Source: Synechococcus sp. BIOS-U3-1
GTDB taxonomy: Bacteria; Cyanobacteriota; Cyanobacteriia; PCC-6307; Cyanobiaceae
Assembly (NCBI RefSeq): GCF_014279975.1
Contig: NZ_CP047936.1
Location: 2,604,001-2,668,000 of the forward strand
Direction of reading: 5' to 3'
Length of the DNA: 64,000 nucleotides
The notes below the pieces were generated by a model. It saw nothing but the letters and a program-made list of their open reading frames with translations. It did no database searches and was not told the origin of the DNA. Below, one piece after another: positions 1 to 14,425 of this stretch. Both the position numbers and the translations under genes were made by a program. The first letter of the stretch is position 1. Each line of letters begins with the position of its first letter.

Positions 1-1136
1 AAGTCAACTTCTCGAAGGCAACGAAAACACGCATTGAGGGGAGAATTGCGGAATTCACAGAAAATTTCAAACGGTCTCATCCCGAAGTTCAGGTTGTCTT
101 GTCTGTTTACAAAGGCGGTCGAATTTGGGAAGATATTGTCAGAGATAGCACACTCGATTTAGGCCCAGATCTGATCATTTCAAATGAGATGATCATCAAA
201 AGCCTTCACGAGGAAGGATTTGCAGCTCCGCTTCCAGCTCAAATCGATTGGGATCAGACATACGACCCATTACTAAAAGAAATTGCAAGCACTGATGGCC
301 AATATATTGCAGCACCTTTTTTGACTTTTACACAGGTTGCTTGCTACAACAAAAAAACTGTTCCATCTCCACCTCAAACCATCCAAGAGCTGGAAAAACT
401 CACCGCCAGCGGAACACGTGTCGGCTTATCTTTAGAGCCAGCAATGCTTCTATGGACAGCAGGTTCATTGGGCGCCATCAAAGAGATTAGTGCACTCGGG
501 CTCAATGAAAGCAAAAGCACAGATACAAAAGCAATTCGCTCTTGGCTTGCTTGGCTCCGCAAAGCTGCGTTCTATCAAAATATTTCTTTCTTCAAATCTT
601 ATGTACAAAAAGATACTTCACTGATCAACAATGAGCTCGACTGGATCACCTGTCATGCCTCAGAGATTGAAAAAATTCGCAACAAGATGGGGGCCTCTCT
701 TGGAGTGTCTGCACTTCCGAATGGTGCACGAGCTTCGGCCTTCCCCTGGCCTACCTTTGTCTCCTTTGGAGTCGGAATAAATTCCAGCCCAAAACAACGA
801 AATGCCGCTATTAAATATATTCAATCAAGCACGAATGTAATCGTACAAAGGCAGCTCATGCTCCGCAATGTCGACTTTCTAGCGACCAACAAACATGTGT
901 CAATTCCAATTAGCAGCTCGCAAACACTGCAAGCCTTAAACACATCCTTTAACAAGCAGGTTAGAGGATATACGAAGGAGTGGCCTGGGGTCTTGCGCTT
1001 TTTAACGGGTCACAAGAATCATCCCAATCGATACCAAGAAGTTAGTTCCGCCCTCGCTGATCTAACCAGTGGCTACTTAAAAGTGGATCAAGCATTAGAT
1101 GTTATTTCCAACTTCAAACAGGGCAGCGAGCCATGA
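1..1136 (+). CDS. Solute-binding lipoprotein-like protein, copy 1 (5' end outside window)
   Basis: Periplasmic solute-binding protein of the family 1 (MalE-like) type, truncated by the window edge. The frame is open from base 3, and the codons before the TTG at 99 already match the paralogue at 7863-9098, so the true start lies upstream. Shared landmarks are LGPDL, GTRxGL, LWTAGSLGA, NSSPxQR and SSQTL. It overlaps the MscS-type channel gene by 4 nt (ATGA), so the two are probably translationally coupled. No ABC permease or ATPase for this binding protein is nearby, so uptake is not supported; a role coupled to the channel is an inference. Base composition is more AT-rich than in copy 2. The ligand is unknown. 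Confidence 0.8.
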   Translation, partial: VNFSKATKTRIEGRIAEFTENFKRSHPEVQVVLSVYKGGRIWEDIVRDSTLDLGPDLIISNEMIIKSLHEEGFAAPLPAQIDWDQTYDPLLKEIASTDGQYIAAPFLTFTQVACYNKKTVPSPPQTIQELEKLTASGTRVGLSLEPAMLLWTAGSLGAIKEISALGLNESKSTDTKAIRSWLAWLRKAAFYQNISFFKSYVQKDTSLINNELDWITCHASEIEKIRNKMGASLGVSALPNGARASAFPWPTFVSFGVGINSSPKQRNAAIKYIQSSTNVIVQRQLMLRNVDFLATNKHVSIPISSSQTLQALNTSFNKQVRGYTKEWPGVLRFLTGHKNHPNRYQEVSSALADLTSGYLKVDQALDVISNFKQGSEP

Positions 1137-2323
1137 ATGCAATTCTCAAGGAGCTCTCTGCCTGGCTTGGATATCTCGATCGTCAAGCCGTCAGCTGGCA
1201 ATTGGGATTCATTCTATTGGCCCTCATCGCAGCAACGATCTTGCACAAATACAGGAAGGGCCAACGTGTATCTTCCTCCCTCGACCTGCTCTTTGGTCCC
1301 CTACTGCTGCTGATACCCAGCCTTTTACTTAAACTCATTGCTGTTCCCACAGGAATCAGCACTCAATTCGGCTGGATCTGGAGTCTTTGGAACGTCGTGA
1401 GCTGGTTAGAGATAAAACTTCAAAGGAGATATAAGGCCTCTCGATTCACACCTTGGTTAGGCAAGGTGGTACGGCCAACCATTCTGGTCGCTGCCATTGT
1501 TTATTTTATCGATCGTCTGAGCAGTATTTCATCGATCGCACTCATTCAGATAGGCACCATTCTTGAGGCAGAGCTTGCGATCGGCAATGTTTTTGTATCA
1601 CTCGTGGGCCTCTATCTAATCTTCGTTTGTAGCCGAACAATCGCCTTTGTGATGGCCTGGCTGTTGCAAACTATTCTGAGAACAAAAACACAAAGTCGCA
1701 AACTACTCGAACAACTTATTCAATACCTCATCGTCGCTATCGGCACTTTGTTAATAGCCCTGCAGGCAGGTTTCAACGCCACGGCTTTGTTATGGATCTC
1801 AGGTGGTTTGTCCTTTGGCCTTGGTTTTAGCCTCAAAGAAATCATGACTAATCTTCTAAGCGGTATCTGGCTTTTACTCGAAGGTTGGATTCAACCAGGA
1901 GAAGTTCTAATGATCAACGGAGATCCCTGCCGAGTTACCAAACTAGGCCTCAGAGCCACTGAATTATCAAGATCACGAGATGATGCGACCCTATTGATTC
2001 CCAATTTTACCTTCTTCACAAAAGATGCTGAATCCTTCACCGCTGGAGAAAACGACCGGCGTGAATCGATTCATGTGAGTGCTGCTTACCAGCACGAACC
2101 GAAGGCAGTGATCGCTGTGCTTGAAGAAGTTGCTAAAAAACATCAGCGAGTGCTCAAAATGCCGTCACCAAAAGCCTTTGCCATCGACTTCTCTGAATCA
2201 TCGATCGACTACAAACTCAAGTTTTCAGTTCCTAATCCTCTCGAGGCCTTGTCAATTGGGAGTGAATTAAGGCAGGCCATCTGGGTCGCTTTTGATGACA
2301 ATGGAATCAAAGCCACCAACTAA
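1133..2323 (+). CDS. MscS-family mechanosensitive channel, copy 1
   Basis: 396-residue inner-membrane channel of the MscS family, which releases solutes or ions when membrane tension rises. The N-terminal ~210 residues form several hydrophobic segments. The pore-lining helix with the Gly/Ala-rich pattern SGGLSFGLGF and the following SGIWLL lies at about 222-250. A beta domain follows (PGEVLMINGDPC, then LLIPN) and then an alpha/beta C-terminal domain. It starts inside the stop region of the binding-protein gene (ATGA) and converges with the ABC permease gene, overlapping it by 4 nt. It is the paralogue of the channel at 9095-10369, which has the same partner and the same overlap. Family assignment is firm; the link to the binding protein is inferred from gene order. 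Confidence 0.87.
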   Translation: MNAILKELSAWLGYLDRQAVSWQLGFILLALIAATILHKYRKGQRVSSSLDLLFGPLLLLIPSLLLKLIAVPTGISTQFGWIWSLWNVVSWLEIKLQRRYKASRFTPWLGKVVRPTILVAAIVYFIDRLSSISSIALIQIGTILEAELAIGNVFVSLVGLYLIFVCSRTIAFVMAWLLQTILRTKTQSRKLLEQLIQYLIVAIGTLLIALQAGFNATALLWISGGLSFGLGFSLKEIMTNLLSGIWLLLEGWIQPGEVLMINGDPCRVTKLGLRATELSRSRDDATLLIPNFTFFTKDAESFTAGENDRRESIHVSAAYQHEPKAVIAVLEEVAKKHQRVLKMPSPKAFAIDFSESSIDYKLKFSVPNPLEALSIGSELRQAIWVAFDDNGIKATN

Positions 2324-3108
2324 CTGGAGGCCGAGGTGTAGTGCCGCAACGCGAACAACCAGAACCCCCTGGCAGCAGCAAAAAAGCCGCCAGCCAAGAC
2401 AAACCCCAGAGCCAGCAAGGGGAGTGAAGCCCGCCCCAGCAGGACCTCTGCAGGCACTGTGGTGAGAAACGCCACAGGAACCACCAAGGTGAACAGCAGC
2501 CGCAAGGAGGCGGGATAGGCCTCAAGCGGGTAGCGCCCCGATGCCAGCACGGCCCGCAGCACTTCCGTGGCGTTCCAAGTCTTCACGAACCAGATGCTGG
2601 TGGCAGCGATCAGAAACCACAGCGAATAAAGGATCACTGCAGCCACCATCAGCATCAGCATCACGGTGACCAGTACAGCTGGAGTCAGCACAACGCCGGA
2701 TTGGTGCGCGCCCCAACCGGCCAGGCCAAGGCCCAGAACAACTTCAGACAAACCTGCAGGCGCAAACGTTCGCAACGACACCCAGAACTGACTATCGATC
2801 GGTTTAAGCAACACGAAATCAAGGGTGCCCTCGCGCACATAGGTGACGATCGCTCCGAGATTGGGCCTCAGCCAGGCGGTCGTCATGCCGTCGAACACGG
2901 TGTAGAAGCCCTGCACGATCAAAGCCTGGTTCCAGTTCCATCCCCCAAGCTCCCGGCCGGGCCCGAAGAAGAGAGACAACAGCAGCAGGCTGCCGCTGAG
3001 GCTGAGGACCACGGCCAGCAGCTCCACCACCACATTCAGCTGATATTCCAGCTGGGTGGCCAGAGCAGTACCCCAGAAACGGCGCAAGGTTCGCCAATAG
3101 CGCCCCAT
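2320..3108 (-). CDS. ABC-2 type exporter permease (second subunit)
   Basis: 262-residue polytopic membrane protein, the last gene of a three-gene ABC-2 exporter operon. The chosen ATG at 3108 lies one base after the stop of the upstream permease gene and gives a natural cytoplasmic start (MGRYWRTLRRFW) before the first membrane segment. Longer in-frame starts would add a Cys-rich, non-membrane-like N-terminus inside the neighbour. About six hydrophobic segments are visible. The sequence looks like the ABC2_membrane_6 (DUF990) type, whose members often work as two different permeases with one ATPase. The substrate is unknown. Confidence 0.8.
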   Translation of the reverse strand: MGRYWRTLRRFWGTALATQLEYQLNVVVELLAVVLSLSGSLLLLSLFFGPGRELGGWNWNQALIVQGFYTVFDGMTTAWLRPNLGAIVTYVREGTLDFVLLKPIDSQFWVSLRTFAPAGLSEVVLGLGLAGWGAHQSGVVLTPAVLVTVMLMLMVAAVILYSLWFLIAATSIWFVKTWNATEVLRAVLASGRYPLEAYPASLRLLFTLVVPVAFLTTVPAEVLLGRASLPLLALGFVLAGGFFAAARGFWLFALRHYTSASS

Positions 3109-3109
3109 C

Positions 3110-3907
3110 TCAGGCCCCCATGGCGCTGTAGCGCCGAACACCGGCTCGCCAGAGCAACAACACCAGCGGCAGCAGCAGCAACACCCAGGCCAGCTGTGCA
3201 CCAAAGCCTGCAGCCAAATCCACCGGATCGCCCGACAACACCCGAGCTGGAAAATCAATCAGATAGGGAAACGGTGTCCAGCGCACCCAGTTCTGCACAG
3301 CAGGCGGGAAAGCCGTGAGTGGAGCCAGCAGTCCGGAGAAAAACAGAAAAGGTAAAAACAGCAACCGCTCCAGCGCCGTGGCCTTCTCACTCCAGAAACA
3401 CAGCGATGCAATCAGGCTCTGCAGCAAAAAGGCAATGGCAAAGGCCATCCAGGTGGCGATCCAGGCCAGCAAAAATCCTCCCAGCGATGGAATCCAAAAG
3501 GCTTGCGGCTGAATCAGAAAAAACAGACCGGCGATACCGGCAGCGAAGGGCAGCCTGGTGAGCTGCTCACCCAGATGCGAGGCCACGTAGCGCCAGAGAG
3601 GATGCAACGGTTGAAGCAGATAGGGCGACAACCTTCCCAGCAGTGCATCTTCCTCGAAGGCGTAGACCATCCAGACCACCGAAAACTGACGCACCAGAAA
3701 AGCGCTGAGGAAATAACGGTCCAGAGCCACCCCGTCTAATCCCAGTTGAGCTCGCGCGTCACTGCCACTCCAGAGGCTGAGCATGATGAACGGCAGCACT
3801 CCAGACAAGGCCCAGAGCGCGATCTCAGCGCGATACTCGAGCATGTGCGCGTACTGACTGCCCAACAGGGCGCGCACAATTCGACGATTGAGCCCGAAGA
3901 TGCGCAT
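3110..3907 (-). CDS. ABC-2 type exporter permease (first subunit)
   Basis: 265-residue membrane protein with about six hydrophobic segments and a basic cytoplasmic N-terminus. It is the middle gene of the operon: its ATG overlaps the ATPase stop codon by one base (TGATG), and the next permease starts one base after its own stop. Tight spacing and paired permeases indicate a heteromeric ABC-2 exporter. Families of this type export drugs, lipids or polysaccharides; nothing in the sequence identifies the cargo. Confidence 0.82.
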   Translation of the reverse strand: MRIFGLNRRIVRALLGSQYAHMLEYRAEIALWALSGVLPFIMLSLWSGSDARAQLGLDGVALDRYFLSAFLVRQFSVVWMVYAFEEDALLGRLSPYLLQPLHPLWRYVASHLGEQLTRLPFAAGIAGLFFLIQPQAFWIPSLGGFLLAWIATWMAFAIAFLLQSLIASLCFWSEKATALERLLFLPFLFFSGLLAPLTAFPPAVQNWVRWTPFPYLIDFPARVLSGDPVDLAAGFGAQLAWVLLLLPLVLLLWRAGVRRYSAMGA

Positions 3908-4881
3908 CAGAGGCTTCCCTGGCGAAACAACTCGCCGATCAACTGATCAATCGGAGGGTCATTCACCTCCAGATCGCGCACCTCAAAACGTTCCAGGATC
4001 TTTGCCAGAACCCTGGTGAGTGATGCCGGATCCACCCGTAGGTTGACCTCACAATTCTCAAGGCTGTCGAGCCGACCCAACCCGGTGAAGGCTTCTGCAG
4101 ATGCAGGCTCTTTCAGCTCGAGCCGCACGTGGCGCTCTGGCGCCAGACGACTAGCAAGGCGATCCAGGGCGCCGTCGTGAAACAACTGCCCCTGATGAAT
4201 CAGCAGCACCCGCGGGCATAGGGCCGTGATGTCGGCCATGTAATGACTCGTGAGTAAAACAGTGGCACCGGTGCGGCGGTTGTAATCGGCAAGAAACTGG
4301 CGCACCCGCATCTGAGCATTCACATCCAGCCCCAGGGTCGGTTCATCCAGAAACAGCACCTCGGGTTCGTGCAGCAAGGCAGCAAGCAACTCAGCCTTCA
4401 TGCGCTGACCCAGCGACAACTTGCGCACCGGACGGGTGAGCTCTTCGCCCAGCTCCAGCAGGTCTGACAGATCGGCGATCCGTCTTTTGGCAACGCGATC
4501 CGGAATGCCATACACCGCCGCGTTGACGCGCAACGAATCCATTGGCGGCAGATCCCAGATGAGCTGTTGCTTCTGGCCCATCACCAGCGTGATCCGCCGC
4601 AGAAAATCAGGATGCCGTCGTTGGGGTTGATGACCAGCCACCAGCACCTGACCGGAACTGGGATAAATCAGCCCACAGAGCATTTTGAGCGTGGTCGTCT
4701 TGCCGGCTCCATTGGCACCGAGGAAACCCACCATCTCCCCGGGAGCGATCTCAAAGGACACATCCCGCACCGCGGACACATCGCGCTGTCGACGGCGCAG
4801 AAAATGCCGCAAGGTGCCAGCCAAGCCAGGCTGTTTATCAGCGACGCGGTACGTCTTGCTCAGCCTTTCGACCGTGATCAA
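3907..4881 (-). CDS. ABC transporter ATP-binding protein
   Basis: 324-residue ATPase that powers the two downstream ABC-2 permeases. Walker A is GANGAGKTT (about 55-63), the signature is LSLGQ (155-159), Walker B is VLFLDE (175-180) and the switch His is in TSHYM (about 213). The extra C-terminal ~90 residues resemble those of drug and polysaccharide export ATPases (CcmA/NatA-like). It is first in the operon, transcribed leftward, with valS ending 64 bp upstream in the same direction, so read-through from valS is possible. Confidence 0.9.
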   Translation of the reverse strand: MITVERLSKTYRVADKQPGLAGTLRHFLRRRQRDVSAVRDVSFEIAPGEMVGFLGANGAGKTTTLKMLCGLIYPSSGQVLVAGHQPQRRHPDFLRRITLVMGQKQQLIWDLPPMDSLRVNAAVYGIPDRVAKRRIADLSDLLELGEELTRPVRKLSLGQRMKAELLAALLHEPEVLFLDEPTLGLDVNAQMRVRQFLADYNRRTGATVLLTSHYMADITALCPRVLLIHQGQLFHDGALDRLASRLAPERHVRLELKEPASAEAFTGLGRLDSLENCEVNLRVDPASLTRVLAKILERFEVRDLEVNDPPIDQLIGELFRQGSL

Positions 4882-4945
4882 CGAAGAGTCCAGCGGTCAT
4901 GGGCAGAGCTTGACGAAGGCTAGGAATCTGAACGGCGGAAGCGAC

Positions 4946-7717
4946 TCAACTGAGATCCTCCAGACGCCTGCGGGCCAAATCAGCCTGTGACTCAGCCTCA
5001 GCCAAGTTGGCCTTGCATTCCGCCACTACTGCGGCCGGAGCCTTGTCAGCGAAATTGGGATTGGCCAGTCGACCGGACAAGCCCTTGATCTCCTTCTCGG
5101 CCTTGGCGATGTCCTTCTCCAAACGTGCCTTCAGGGCGTCGAGATCCACCAGGCCTTCAATCGGAAGCAACACCTGAAGCTCACCGCTGACGCCAGCCAG
5201 AGCCTTGGTCACCGGTGCGGCATCCGCCTCAGACGGCGTCATCACCTGAACCGTTTCAGCTCTGGTGAGCGCTGTGATGTCGGCCATCCCCTGCTGCAGC
5301 ACCGCAACAAGATCGCCGCGGCCACTCACGAAACGCACCGGAACGGTCTGAGAGGGCTTGAGGCCTGCTACCGCGCGCAGATTGCGCACCACGCGGATCG
5401 CTGCGATCAACTCGGCGAATGAAGCCTCGAGATCATCATCCAGCGCTACCTGATCGACAGCCGGCCAGGCTTGTAGTGCCAAAAACGTTGTCTCAGGCTC
5501 GGCGGTGACGCTGTGCCACAACTCTTCAGTGAGATGCGGCATCAGCGGATTCAGCATCAGGTGCATCTGGCTGATCACCTTGGCCAGCACCTGCCTGGCA
5601 GTGCGCTGGTCAGCGAGAGCTTCTGAGCTGGCGTTGTCACCTGGATTCAGCCTGCGCTTGCTGAGCTCCAGATACCAGTCGCAAACGTCGTTCCAAGCGA
5701 ACTCATACAACCCCTTGGCCGCTTCCCCCAGGCCATAGCGGTTGTAGCGATCGGCTGTTTCGCGATTCACCCTTGCCAGGCGCGACAGGATCCAGCGATC
5801 CGCCAACTGCAGAGCAGCAGAATCTGGATCTCCGAGCTGAGCCGGAGTTTCACCATCCAGATTCATCAACGCGAAGCGGGTGGCGTTCCACAGCTTGTTG
5901 GCGAAATTGCGCGCGGCTTCAACGGTGGCGGAGGTGTCCTTCTTGCGGTCGTAGTCCAGCCGGATGTCCTGACCGGCGCCAGCCACTTCCCTCACCAACG
6001 CGAAACGCAGAGCATCGGTGCCGTAACGCTCGATCAACAGCAGCGGATCGATGCCGTTGCCGGCGCTCTTGCTCATCTTGCGGTTCTGCTCATCCCTCAC
6101 CAGACCATGGATGTAGACGTCCTTAAACGGCATCACATCCGTGAAAGCGCCGGCCATCATCGTCATCCGGGCCACCCAGAAGAAGATGATGTCGAAGCCT
6201 GTCACGAGGGTGCTGGTGGGATACCAGCGCTGTAGATCGGCACTGTTGGCGTCGGGCCATCCCAGGGTGGAGAAGGGCCAGAGGCCGCTCGAGAACCAGG
6301 TGTCGAGGACGTCCTCGTCCTGCTCAATCAGGGCAGCTGAACCGAACTTTTCCCTGGCCTTCTCCAGAGCCTCCGCTTCATTACGTGCCACCACATAAGG
6401 GGTGGTGTCGGTGTACTTGCCACCGGTCTCGCTGATCACGAACCAGGCCGGAATGCGATGTCCCCACCACAACTGACGGCTGATGCACCAGTCACGGATG
6501 TCCGTGAGCCAGTCGCGATACACCTTCTCCCAGCGCTCGGGAATGAAGCGCGGATCCTGCTTCTCCAGCGCTTCACGACAACGGGCTGCCAACGGCTCTG
6601 TCTTCACGAACCACTGCGTGGAGAGCAAGGGCTCCACAGGGACCTTGCCACGGTCGGAATGAGGAACACTGTGGCGATAGTCCTCCACCTTCACCAGCAA
6701 ACCAAGGTCTTCGAGACCAGCCACCACCGCTTTACGCGCCTCAAAGCGATCCAGCCCCTTGAACTGCCCCGCCTCCTGATTCATGGTGCCGTTCTTGCGC
6801 ATCACCGTGATCTGGGGCAGACCGTGGCGCTGGCCGATGGCGAAGTCATTGGGGTCATGGGCCGGCGTCACCTTGACGCAACCGGTGCCGAACTCCTTCT
6901 CCACATGATCGTCAGCCACGATCGGAATCTCACGCCCCACAAAGGGGAGCGTGAGGGTTTGTCCTACGAGATGGGCATAACGGTCGTCGCTGGGATTCAC
7001 CGCGACCGCCGTGTCTCCAAGCATCGTCTCGGGTCGGGTGGTAGCCACCTCCAGATAACCGTCACCGCTGGTGAGGGGATAGCGGAAATGCCAGAGATAA
7101 CCATCCACCTCCTTCATTTCCACCTCAAGGTCACTGACCGCCGAGCCGGAGGCAGGACACCAATTCACCAAATACTCGCCCCGATAGATCAGACCCTGCT
7201 CGTGCAGACGGACAAAAGCTTCTTTAACGGCCTCGCTCAGACCTTCATCAAGGGTGAACCGCTGCCGACCCCAATCAACGGAATAGCCGAGCCTGCGCAG
7301 CTGATCGACGATGCGGCCGCCGCTTTCGGCCTTCCACTGCCAAGCCCGCTCCAGAAATGCCTCGCGGCCAAGATCGTGACGGGTCTTGCCCTCCTCCTTG
7401 AGCTGCTTCTCAAGGATCGTCTGCACGGCGATCGAGGCATGGTCAGTGCCAGGGAGGCAGAGCACATTTTTTCCCGCCAGGCGCTGGTAGCGCACGATCG
7501 TGTCGATCAGGGCCGTATTGAAGGCGTGGCCCATGTGCAGGCTGCCAGTGACGTTCGGAGGGGGGATCACCACCGAAAACGGATCCCCAGGCGCCTTGGG
7601 GTCGGGATGAAAAGCAGCTTGGTCCTCCCAGGCCTGCTGCCAGCGGGCCTCGGTGCCCACTGGGTCATAGGTCTTGGCCAGCTCGGACACGGGACGCGCG
7701 CAACAACAGCGATCCAT
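4946..7717 (-). CDS. valS: Valyl-tRNA synthetase
   Basis: Class I aminoacyl-tRNA synthetase that charges tRNA-Val in the cytoplasm. The HIGH motif is HMGH (61-64), the editing-domain block [10 protein letters not shown] lies at 226-235, KMSKS is at 547-551, and the C-terminus has the long basic coiled coil typical of ValRS. Length (923 residues) is normal. The ATG at 7717 gives an odd MDRCCCARP start; a GTG at 7690 would give a more typical [10 protein letters not shown]-terminus, so the start is uncertain by nine codons. The cognate tRNA-Val(UAC) gene lies 20 kb away at 27798-27869. Confidence 0.97.
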
Positions 7718-7862
7718 GCTCGCAAAACAGCGGTCTGAACAACGCGCAGCCGCAACATCAACAACCGGGTCCAGCTAGCAAGCCCGCTAGCCATCGAAAG
7801 AGCAGTGGCGAGACAGCCACGATTTTCAAGATCAGAATGGTTCCGTCAATCACCTTTCAATC

Positions 7863-9098
7863 GTGCGTGCTCCGCTGGCAGCGAGCGTTTTGCTCTCCAC
7901 CCTGCTGCTCAGCGTCAGCGGGTGCAGTCGCCTCGGTAATCAGCTGCCGGTGATGCTTTACCTGGCGATGGTGATCGACCAGGACAGCGCGATCGACACT
8001 GCCACACAGACCGACTTCCGCCAGCGGATTCAACTGATCATCAGCGATTTCCGCAAGATCAAGCCCAACGTGGAAGTGCAAGTCGCGCTGTACAACCGCG
8101 CCAATCTCAGCCAGGAACTCCAGCGCCGCAATGCCTCAGGTCTGGGACCTGATCTGGTGGTCACGGATGCCACTCAGGCCAATCAGTTGCTGCGCGACGG
8201 GCTCACTGACGAAATTCCTGTTATGGCATTTCAACGCCAACAAACAGATAAAGCCCTGTGGGAGCGGGTGAAGCTCGACGATGGGCGCATCACGGCTCAG
8301 CCGATCGTGATCTACCCACAGATCGCCTGCTTCAACCGCGAGATCGTTCAGAACCCTCCCACCAACCTGCAGAAGCTGCTTCAACAGGGCGCATCCGGGA
8401 CCCGCATTGGGTTGGCGGTGAACTTCTCGGAAGTGCTCTGGACCGCAGGCAGCCTGGGAGCCATGCAAAGCCTGGCCCGCGCCAACGATGACCAGAACCT
8501 GAGTGCAGAGGACAACGAAATGCTGGTGGCATGGCTGGCCTGGTTGCAACAGGCCAGTGCCCAGCAGAACATCTCCTTTTTCCAAGACCAGGGGGATCTG
8601 GAAACCCTGCTCAACGATGGTGAGCTCGACTGGGTGAGCTGCAACTCCAACAGCCTGCTACGACTCAGAAAACTGATGGGCGACAACCTCGGGGTTTCTC
8701 CTCTGCCCAGAGGCTCTGCAGGAACCTCCAGCCCCGTGAATGCCCTGAGGGTGCTGGCACTCGGAGCCAACTCAAGCCCACGCCAACGTGAAGTGGCCGT
8801 GAGCCTGGCCCAGTTCATCACCAACCCGATGGTGCAAAGGAATCTGTCGCTGCGCTCCCTCGCTTTCCTGCCGGTGAACCCCGCCGTGGCCGTGCCAGTG
8901 CGGAGTTCCCAAACACTGGCCACATTGGTGCAGTCCAGAGAGAATTCGCTGCTGCATGAATCAGCCCTGGCAGGGCTGGCTCACCATCGCAACCTCGATC
9001 GTGATGGGGCACAAGTGCTGGTTCCATTGGTATTTGGAGCCTCAAACCCACAATCCAGCCTTGATGCCCTGCTTAAAGCTCTGGGGAGTGAATCATGA
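7863..9098 (+). CDS. Solute-binding lipoprotein-like protein, copy 2
   Basis: 411-residue family 1 solute-binding protein starting at GTG. A signal peptide ends in the lipobox VSGC with Cys21, so it is probably lipid-anchored on the periplasmic face of a membrane. Conserved blocks shared with copy 1 include LGPDL, GTRIGL, LWTAGSLGA, ANSSPRQR and RSSQTL. It overlaps the MscS-type gene by 4 nt, exactly as in copy 1. No transporter permease is adjacent. It diverges from valS across a 145-bp gap. Ligand unknown; a sensing or gating partner role for the channel is inferred only from the conserved pairing. Confidence 0.85.
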   Translation: MRAPLAASVLLSTLLLSVSGCSRLGNQLPVMLYLAMVIDQDSAIDTATQTDFRQRIQLIISDFRKIKPNVEVQVALYNRANLSQELQRRNASGLGPDLVVTDATQANQLLRDGLTDEIPVMAFQRQQTDKALWERVKLDDGRITAQPIVIYPQIACFNREIVQNPPTNLQKLLQQGASGTRIGLAVNFSEVLWTAGSLGAMQSLARANDDQNLSAEDNEMLVAWLAWLQQASAQQNISFFQDQGDLETLLNDGELDWVSCNSNSLLRLRKLMGDNLGVSPLPRGSAGTSSPVNALRVLALGANSSPRQREVAVSLAQFITNPMVQRNLSLRSLAFLPVNPAVAVPVRSSQTLATLVQSRENSLLHESALAGLAHHRNLDRDGAQVLVPLVFGASNPQSSLDALLKALGSES

Positions 9099-10369
9099 GC
9101 CAACTGCTCTGGGAAATCCTTGGCTGGCTTGGATATCTGCAGCGAAGTGCTGTCGTCGCCCAAGTGCTGCTGATCGCTGGACTCAGCGTGGGATGGCGGC
9201 TGATCAACCCGCAACGCCGGCTTGAAAACCTCTACCCAGCACTGCGATTGCTGGTGGCGCCCATCGCCATGTTGTTGATCGCCTGGCTGATCGAGCTTCC
9301 AGGCGGAACAACTGGGCTGGTCAGCTATGCCGGCCTCTGTTGGCTGGGCTGGAATCTGCTCAACCTTTTGAACCGGCTGCTGCAGCTACTGCTTCCTGCC
9401 TCCAGCATTCATCAACTTGAAAGTCGTCTGCTCAGACCGCTGTTCCTGGTTCTGGTGGGCCTGAATCTGATCAGCAAGTTCGACAATCCAGCTGATCTCG
9501 GCGTGATCAAGCTGGGCAGCCTCTTCGGCGAGATCCTCACCGTGAACAATCTGGTCATCGCCATGGTGGTGACCTATTTGCTGCTCGTGGGCACCAAGCT
9601 TCCAGCCGCTGGGGTGGCCTGGGTGCTGCAGAAGCTCCTCGGCTGCAGTAACAGCAGCCGAAAGGCTCTTGAACTGATCATCCGCTACGTGGTCGTTGGC
9701 ATCGGCTTCACAGCCGTGGGGTTTCACATCGGTCTGAACTCCACGGCTCTGGTCGCCATCGCAGGTGGACTCTCCGTAGGCCTTGGTTTCGGCATCAAGG
9801 AAGTGTTCTCCAACTTCATCAGCGGCATCTGGCTGCTGTTTGAGGGGTCAGTACGTCCGGGAGAGATCTTGATGGTGGATGGAGATCCTTGCGAAGTGCG
9901 CAAGCTGGGCCTGCGCGCCACCCTGCTCTGGCGAGATCGAGACAACGCGGAACTGCTGATTCCCAATCAGATGTTTTTCACCGCGCAAGCCACCAGTTAC
10001 ACCGCCACCGACCGAATGCGGCGCAGTGAGATCCGTGTTGGCGCCGCCTATCGCCATGATCCCCAGGTTGTGCTGAAGCTCCTTGAGCAAACAGCTCTGG
10101 AAGTGCCCAGAGTGCTGAATGATCCAGCGCCGAGGGCGCTGCAGGTGCACTACGGCGACTCCGCCATCGAATACTCACTGCGCTACTGGATCTCCGACCC
10201 CATGAGCAACATCGGCATTGTGAGTGAGGTGAACCAAGCAATCTGGACAGCGTTCAAACGGGAGGGGATTGAAATTCCTTTCCCACAACAGGTCAACACC
10301 GTTAGTGAGATTCCAGCGTTCAGGAGCGAGCCAAGCGCCGGAGATAGCCCTCCTGGGTCCCCGCATTGA
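9095..10369 (+). CDS. MscS-family mechanosensitive channel, copy 2
   Basis: 424-residue MscS-type channel. Several N-terminal membrane segments precede the pore helix AGGLSVGLGFGIKEVF (about 226-241), then SGIWLLFEG, the beta domain (PGEILMVDGDPC, LLIPNQMFF) and the C-terminal alpha/beta domain (about 300-395). A hydrophilic tail of about 25 residues is absent from copy 1. It starts inside the stop of the binding-lipoprotein gene. The 3' end overlaps the convergent oxygenase gene by 50 bp. Confidence 0.88.
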   Translation: MSQLLWEILGWLGYLQRSAVVAQVLLIAGLSVGWRLINPQRRLENLYPALRLLVAPIAMLLIAWLIELPGGTTGLVSYAGLCWLGWNLLNLLNRLLQLLLPASSIHQLESRLLRPLFLVLVGLNLISKFDNPADLGVIKLGSLFGEILTVNNLVIAMVVTYLLLVGTKLPAAGVAWVLQKLLGCSNSSRKALELIIRYVVVGIGFTAVGFHIGLNSTALVAIAGGLSVGLGFGIKEVFSNFISGIWLLFEGSVRPGEILMVDGDPCEVRKLGLRATLLWRDRDNAELLIPNQMFFTAQATSYTATDRMRRSEIRVGAAYRHDPQVVLKLLEQTALEVPRVLNDPAPRALQVHYGDSAIEYSLRYWISDPMSNIGIVSEVNQAIWTAFKREGIEIPFPQQVNTVSEIPAFRSEPSAGDSPPGSPH

Positions 10370-14097: not shown

Positions 14098-14191
14098 AAG
14101 GTCCTGAAACCGAACCTGCATGGTCGGCTGTCCTCTCTTCCAGGGAGTTAACAGCAGGCGTAGACCGAACAGGTCCCACTCGGAGACATCC
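14098..14191 (+). promoter_or_regulatory. Leader/upstream region of hli gene 1, shared with hli gene 2
   Basis: The 94 bases before this hli start align without gaps to the 94 bases before the hli gene at 16797, about 66 of 94 identical by hand count. The best-kept blocks are AAGGTCCT, AAACCGAAC, CGGCTGTCC, TAGACCGA, GGTCCCA and TCGGAGACA (which contains the ribosome binding site). Probably a conserved promoter plus 5' untranslated region. Confidence 0.65.
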
Positions 14192-14425
14192 ATGACAGCC
14201 ACAACACTTCAGGCACCCACTGGACTGGTGACTCATGATCTTGAAGGTCACGACAACGTCTACGCCAAGGAGCCACGTATGGAACTTGCAGGACCTGACG
14301 CAGGCTGGGGATTCCACGAACGGGCGGAGAAGTTGAACGGTCGCCTAGCCATGCTCGGGGTTATGGCTGCGATCGCAACAGAGTTGATCAGTGGCGAAGG
14401 GCTCCTCCACACCATTGGTCTTTAA
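14192..14425 (+). CDS. hli: High-light-inducible protein 1
   Basis: 77-residue single-helix chlorophyll-binding stress protein. The Hlip signature ERAEKLNGRLAMLG lies at about 47-60, followed by one membrane helix and a GEGLLHTIGL end. Hlips bind chlorophyll and carotenoids in thylakoids and help photosystem II assembly and photoprotection. The ATG at 14192 has GGAG 8-11 bases upstream; an in-frame start at 14120 would run through the conserved leader and is rejected. The hydrophilic N-terminus is longer than in the other two hli genes here. Confidence 0.9.
   Translation: MTATTLQAPTGLVTHDLEGHDNVYAKEPRMELAGPDAGWGFHERAEKLNGRLAMLGVMAAIATELISGEGLLHTIGL

Follow-up and report, generated by a model that had tools for sequence, protein, structure and literature searches.

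The mechanosensitive channel MscS of Escherichia coli has three membrane helices, and we know of no dedicated periplasmic binding partner for it. Solute-binding proteins (SBPs) serve importers and some receptors, and the ligand domain of the cyanobacterial channel GluR0 is akin to periplasmic binding proteins. According to PMC9653487, the related MscK is a single chain of 1120 amino acids with eleven helices and a periplasmic domain of about 500 amino acids. It opens when tension is combined with K+ outside, a dependence on ions believed to arise from the periplasmic domain, since constructs deprived of that domain respond to tension alone. GluR0, a glutamate receptor channel, reportedly perceives the exterior by means of a ligand-binding domain (PMC13099474). 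Twenty-four MscS types have been described in picocyanobacteria (PMC9361551), and several msc genes are treated in PMC9948718; the accessible portions of these two papers name no binding-protein partner of MscS channels, and no earlier description of a pairing between an SBP and a mechanosensitive channel was found in the open-licence PubMed Central literature. Such pairs are described here from a stretch of 64,000 nucleotides of Synechococcus sp. BIOS-U3-1 (contig NZ_CP047936.1, genome positions 2,604,001 to 2,668,000; hereafter the window), where the gene of a solute-binding lipoprotein of the maltose-binding protein (MBP) type is directly followed by the gene of an MscS-superfamily channel. 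The pairing is far beyond chance. The two products very probably work together, and we regard a ligand-dependent gating of the channel by the lipoprotein as an even prospect.

Two pairs are located at the beginning of the window:

Positions 3–1136 (listed as 1..1136), plus strand: SBP1, copy 1 of the MBP-type solute-binding lipoprotein, 5' end beyond the window
Positions 1133–2323, plus strand: MscS1, copy 1 of the MscK/MscS-type channel, joined to the SBP1 stop by ATGA at 1133–1136
Positions 7863–9098, plus strand: SBP2, copy 2 of the solute-binding lipoprotein (predicted MBP fold), with a GTG start
Positions 7914–7925, plus strand: lipobox VSGC of SBP2, whose cysteine is residue 21
Positions 9095–10369, plus strand: MscS2, copy 2 of the channel, MscK-like, with an ATGA overlap at 9095–9098

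The initial annotation had reported a binding protein overlapping an MscS channel by ATGA twice in 10 kb, and both pairs and both overlaps are real. It had also placed a lipobox in copy 2 and the N-terminus of copy 1 outside the window; indeed, SBP1 truly starts at genome position 2603874, 127 bases 5' of the window, and has the lipobox LIGC there. The paralogy noted there is reflected in 33% identity between the SBPs (365 columns) and 39% between the channels (393 columns), and the difference in base composition in a GC content of 0.449/0.465 for SBP1/MscS1 versus 0.594/0.582 for SBP2/MscS2. In Pfam, SBP2 matched SBP_bac_8 (E 6.8e-17, 62.6 bits against a cut-off of 27), while SBP1 had no match at E 0.01 and is assigned to the solute-binding family because it is homologous to SBP2. 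Both channels matched MS_channel_1st, MS_channel_2nd and MS_channel_3rd, the match of MscS1 to MS_channel_1st standing at 19.1 bits, under the cut-off of 23.1.

Profiles were built from the three SBPs and three channels of this genome (the third pair is listed below), and each was run on 399 genomes of the order at E 1e-5 for the SBP and 1e-40 for the channel; up to four candidates were scored per genome, copy numbers above four being invisible. The SBP was found in 144 genomes, the channel in 145 and both in 142, with the SBP alone in two and the channel alone in three, which makes orphans of 5 out of 147 positive genomes. All positive genomes belong to the window's own family, in 19 of 44 genera, and some of them have at least four copies; among the 20 genomes listed as lacking the SBP, 14 are small (1.6–1.9 Mb). 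Named records in the alignments carry the titles Synechococcus, Cyanobium or Cyanobacteria bacterium. Among the matches listed, a same-strand channel followed downstream of 126 of the 150 SBP places, and 121 of these 126 pairs have the frame relation that an ATGA overlap yields. Seemingly unpaired were 24 SBPs and 24 channels, again among the matches listed; inspection of the sequences of 20 and 19 of them, respectively, turned 19 SBPs and 17 channels into paired ones, leaving two contig ends (G347 and G363) and one broken SBP (G035). The junctions were compared over 158 pairs, reduced to 130 by identical SBP ends, with any in-frame ATG, GTG or TTG accepted as a putative channel start. This start codon overlapped the SBP stop ATGA-style in 84 of the 130 unique pairs and lay within 60 nucleotides of it in 43 further ones (127 of 130 in total), being not so near in three.

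The channel profile was further applied to 386 genomes sampled from the phylum. Among the matches listed, an upper tier outside the order comprised 22 places in five families (E ~1e-69 to 1e-89), and all 20 loci examined among these, covering all five families, had an SBP of the family described here directly upstream on the same strand (E ~1e-29 to 1e-45). Conservation beyond the strain, on which the initial annotation had made its proposal depend, thus extends from the 142 genomes of the order to these 20 loci, and at least six families, the window's own included, retain the pair; a strain-specific accident is thereby ruled out. The next 20 MscS places listed served as a control (E ~1e-47 to 1e-40; 21 channel matches). 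None of the 20 had such an SBP within ~4 kb when searched with a three-sequence SBP profile at E 1e-8, to which SBPs of other families are undetectable, and this rules out an upstream SBP as a general trait of MscS genes. A maximum-likelihood tree was built from 34 paired channels, taken as every third of 100, together with 22 unpaired ones; a branch with a support of 98/97 separated the 34 from the 22. Since the controls were empty and the tree is split in this way, the association is restricted to one channel clade and does not concern MscS genes generally. A genome of the window's genus, G042, has a typical pair and a second one (L142:391–3017), whose channel scores E ~1e-68 like those outside the order and which was perhaps acquired by transfer. 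A contig scan meant to reveal pairs beyond the cyanobacteria gave 12 loci, all in records with cyanobacterial titles; the scan reaches fairly close relatives and so bears little on other phyla. None of 115 pattern matches on viral contigs was a relative of the channel, and carriage of the pair by phages was set aside on this ground. On plasmids, 271 records had partial channel matches at E 1e-10, and query coverage stayed below 80% in all of them.

The two genes have also been inherited as a unit. In a set of 99 pairs, obtained by clustering at 88% identity and from which one pair with a broken SBP (L062) was dropped, the SBP and channel tree distances correlated with r = 0.94, and 500 label shuffles reached 0.14 at most. 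Swapping partners within a genome worsened the fit in 12 of 12 cases; for this test, loci were assigned to genomes by hand, and L046 and L017 are probably one genome. Linked inheritance alone would produce the same tree agreement, as expected if the genes were merely co-transcribed neighbours in an ancient operon passed on vertically, each product playing its own part in osmotic stress, and the retention of a channel beside the broken SBP of G035 fits such neighbours as well. Against it stand the retention of the pair in at least six families, the near absence of orphans from the order (5 among 147 positive genomes) and, for 127 of 130 pairs, a channel start codon no more than 60 nucleotides from the SBP stop; we consider this explanation very unlikely.

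The predicted model of SBP2 has a mean predicted local distance difference test (pLDDT) score of 93.8 and displays the full fold of maltose-binding protein, with MalE of Streptomyces scabiei (Z 36.2) and GacH (Z 35.9) as structural matches; on the strength of this model, the lipoprotein appears to have an MBP-type solute-binding fold. Of 99 aligned SBPs, 96% keep the lipid cysteine (residue 21 of SBP2). With a strict lipobox pattern, 101 of 130 sequences were recognized, and most of the 15 misses displayed have a cysteine near that place. Invariant in 99 of 99 SBPs are, in SBP2 numbering, two extra cysteines (156 and 260), W193, P147 and P282, whereas the aligned places of cysteines 156 and 260 hold no cysteine in four chains compared. 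Pfam at E 0.001 recognized SBP_bac_8 in 70 and SBP_bac_1 in 39 of the 99 SBPs. These models therefore match only part of the family, which has drifted from ordinary binding proteins, and two invariant cysteines might lock the protein; both features would suit a structural partner that aids the assembly, placement or sealing of the channel and has lost its ligand binding. Such a partner role seems unlikely to us; W193 (100%) and position 257 (aromatic in 99% of the 99 SBPs) speak against it, as both fall in stretches that align with the MBP stretches in which its sugar-binding aromatics reside.

At the same Pfam threshold, the 100 paired channels matched MS_channel_2nd in all cases, MS_channel_1st in 93 and MS_channel_3rd in 91. 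By its pore helix, beta domain and C-terminal domain the channel can be placed in the MscS superfamily, its opening by tension being putative. The predicted model of MscS2 (mean pLDDT 88.8, predicted template modelling score [pTM] 0.63) consists of a short N-terminal helix, seven membrane helices as counted by eye, and soluble domains of the MscS type. Basic residues average 3.0 and 1.3 per chain in loops 1-2 and 3-4, compared with 0.3, 0.6 and 0.0 in loops 2-3, 4-5 and 6-7; because they concentrate in loops 1-2 and 3-4, the N-terminus is probably periplasmic, loop 5-6 (0.7 per chain) being undecisive for the topology. The channel profile ranked MscK first (E 2.8e-56), followed by MscM (E 3.5e-47) and MscS (E 5.3e-32). 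Superposition of the model on MscK gave Z 18.3 with a root-mean-square deviation (rmsd) of 10.7 over 383 residues, model residues 17–406 aligning with MscK 659–1097, and the channel thus has membrane helices beyond the MscS core. The large N-terminal periplasmic domain of MscK is missing, as the model opens with the short helix and goes straight into the first membrane helix. On the NCBIfam MscK equivalog PRK11281, whose cut-off is 991 bits, MscS2 scored 157.2 and MscS1 101.7.

We propose that each pair forms one osmotic-release machine. By analogy with its family, the channel gene would give rise to a heptamer whose subunits, each having about seven membrane helices and a probably periplasmic N-terminus, resemble the membrane core of E. 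coli MscK minus the large periplasmic domain. The upstream gene would supply an MBP-type lipoprotein, held to a membrane by its N-terminal lipid and residing in the periplasm, which would dock onto the periplasmic face of the channel. Ligand-dependent closure of its two lobes could then render opening under tension conditional on a small organic solute; from the SBP fold, our guess is an osmolyte resembling a sugar, for instance glucosylglycerol or sucrose. The lipoprotein would thereby take the regulatory place of the MscK periplasmic domain, with an organic solute in place of external K+. The heptameric state, the physical contact, the class of ligand and the effect of its binding on gating are what we infer. 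A regulatory role of the lipoprotein is the simplest reading, because the channel is without the MscK domain and the gene before it encodes a lipid-anchored, two-lobed binding protein. Somewhat more tentatively, a periplasmic MBP-type lipoprotein may have left ABC (ATP-binding cassette) import to become the sensor of an MscK-like channel, as a subunit of its own. Duplication and divergence, up to four copies in some genomes, may then have tied the opening threshold of each channel to a different solute outside the cell.

Besides the two pairs, the following genes lie in or next to the window:

Genome positions 2599685–2601097 and 2601094–2602476: a third pair of SBP and MscS-type channel, likewise overlapping by ATGA, a short way upstream of the window
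Genome positions 2602503–2603603 (L010:10503–11603): a different MscS-type gene, between the third pair and SBP1
Window positions 2320–4881, minus strand: an ABC ATPase and two ABC permeases, between pair 1 and pair 2
Window positions 14120–14425, plus strand: a short open reading frame resembling a high-light-inducible protein, which we presume it to be

A search of the genome with SBP2 returned three SBPs of its family, all within the cluster formed by the three pairs, and reading by eye found lipoboxes in all three (LIGC, VSGC and LSSC). The GC content of the third pair is 0.556/0.520 (SBP/channel). Pair 1 (window 1–2323) has a lower GC content than the downstream genes (~0.60), with the third pair and the extra MscS gene intermediate (0.51–0.56). 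This extra gene is 22% identical to MscS2, has no SBP directly upstream and could encode an accessory subunit or a separate channel. Pairs 1 and 2 are separated by the ABC genes together with a gene which we take to be valS. Open reading frames that resemble these ABC genes in size and order adjoin the broken SBP in L123.

In the initial annotation, no ABC permease or ATPase was thought to serve the binding proteins. This stands insofar as no importer permease is near, although the interval between the pairs does contain an ABC ATPase with two permeases; the latter match ABC-2 families (PF06182, ABC2_membrane_6) and not the BPD_transp_1 of SBP-dependent importers. An importer permease just outside the window, named there as the finding that would count against the proposal, is absent: the nearest BPD_transp_1 gene of this genome is ~690 kb off in contig coordinates, or ~510 kb off should the chromosome be circular. 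For eight other genomes, where BPD_transp_1 gave 182 matches in all, no gene among the matches listed was within 35 kb of a located pair, the nearest being ~38 kb away, in G412. With no importer permease near and the adjacent ABC genes of ABC-2 type on the opposite strand, the SBPs as orphans of a local importer are ruled out. A distant importer could be served if the channel released osmolytes on downshock and the lipoprotein recaptured the lost solute for an ABC importer encoded elsewhere, the genes being coupled since they are needed simultaneously. The MBP/GacH-type fold is indeed that of sugar importers, and one locus of the genome, probably a sugar-type importer, might take a second SBP at its two permeases (1263292 and 1264128). 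It has, however, a strong SBP_bac_1 protein beside them (1265228–1266097). An importer role of the lipoprotein is less likely because the permeases are distant and the importer of that locus already owns an SBP. Moreover, in the nine genomes examined no importer permease was near the located pairs among the matches listed, and the one-to-one pairing, the at least four copies in some genomes and the persistent coupling of start and stop point to a constant ratio between lipoprotein and channel more than to service for a distant importer. We therefore hold such scavenging to be unlikely.

Several observations weigh against a regulatory lipoprotein–channel machine. Both genes are missing from 252 of the 399 genomes of the order, and a natural fusion of the SBP with the channel was not seen, none of the 126 listed pairs lying in one frame. 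In genome G035 (L123:6554–9161) an intact channel adjoins a fragmented SBP, which would be a natural decay of the SBP with the channel retained, unless it is a sequencing error. Long linkage without interaction would account equally for the tree agreement (r = 0.94); nearest neighbours coincide in 72 of 99 pairs only, and across the 12 within-genome paralogue distances the correlation is weak (r = 0.24). On the structural side, the overall arrangement of the channel model is uncertain (pTM 0.63), and its fit to MscK is loose (rmsd 10.7), the helix packing being different or uncertain.

If the lipoprotein sets the threshold, cyanobacteria, including Synechococcus, would own a ligand-tuned valve for the release of organic osmolytes, which would bear on their survival of salinity changes and on the release of dissolved organic carbon. 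The ligand gating of MscK could then be compared with that of a system in which sensing is left to a well-understood fold on a chain of its own. Should gating be proven, a mechanosensitive channel with a lipoprotein as its detached sensor would represent a new kind of system; at present, the pairs seem akin, by analogy, to ligand-modulated channels of the MscS superfamily.

Overall, the pairs combine traits of several described systems. With MalE and GacH, the SBPs of ABC sugar importers, the lipoprotein shares the full fold (Z ~36), whereas it has no importer permease near its gene among the matches listed for the nine genomes, carries two invariant cysteines besides the lipid cysteine and is coupled to a channel gene. 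With MscS of E. coli, the channel has in common the pore helix, the beta domain and the C-terminal domain. MscK (KefA) of E. coli is its best match in both sequence and structure, including the membrane helices beyond the MscS core; in contrast to MscK, the channels of this genome have 396–460 amino acids, about seven helices and no periplasmic domain, and a separate lipoprotein with a predicted MBP fold is encoded upstream. GluR0 provides the precedent of a cyanobacterial channel reported to sense the outside via a ligand-binding domain, but it is a K+ channel with this domain in the same chain, whereas here a separate lipoprotein accompanies a pore of the MscS superfamily. MscK and GluR0 may be regarded as precedents in principle for a ligand-modulated channel.

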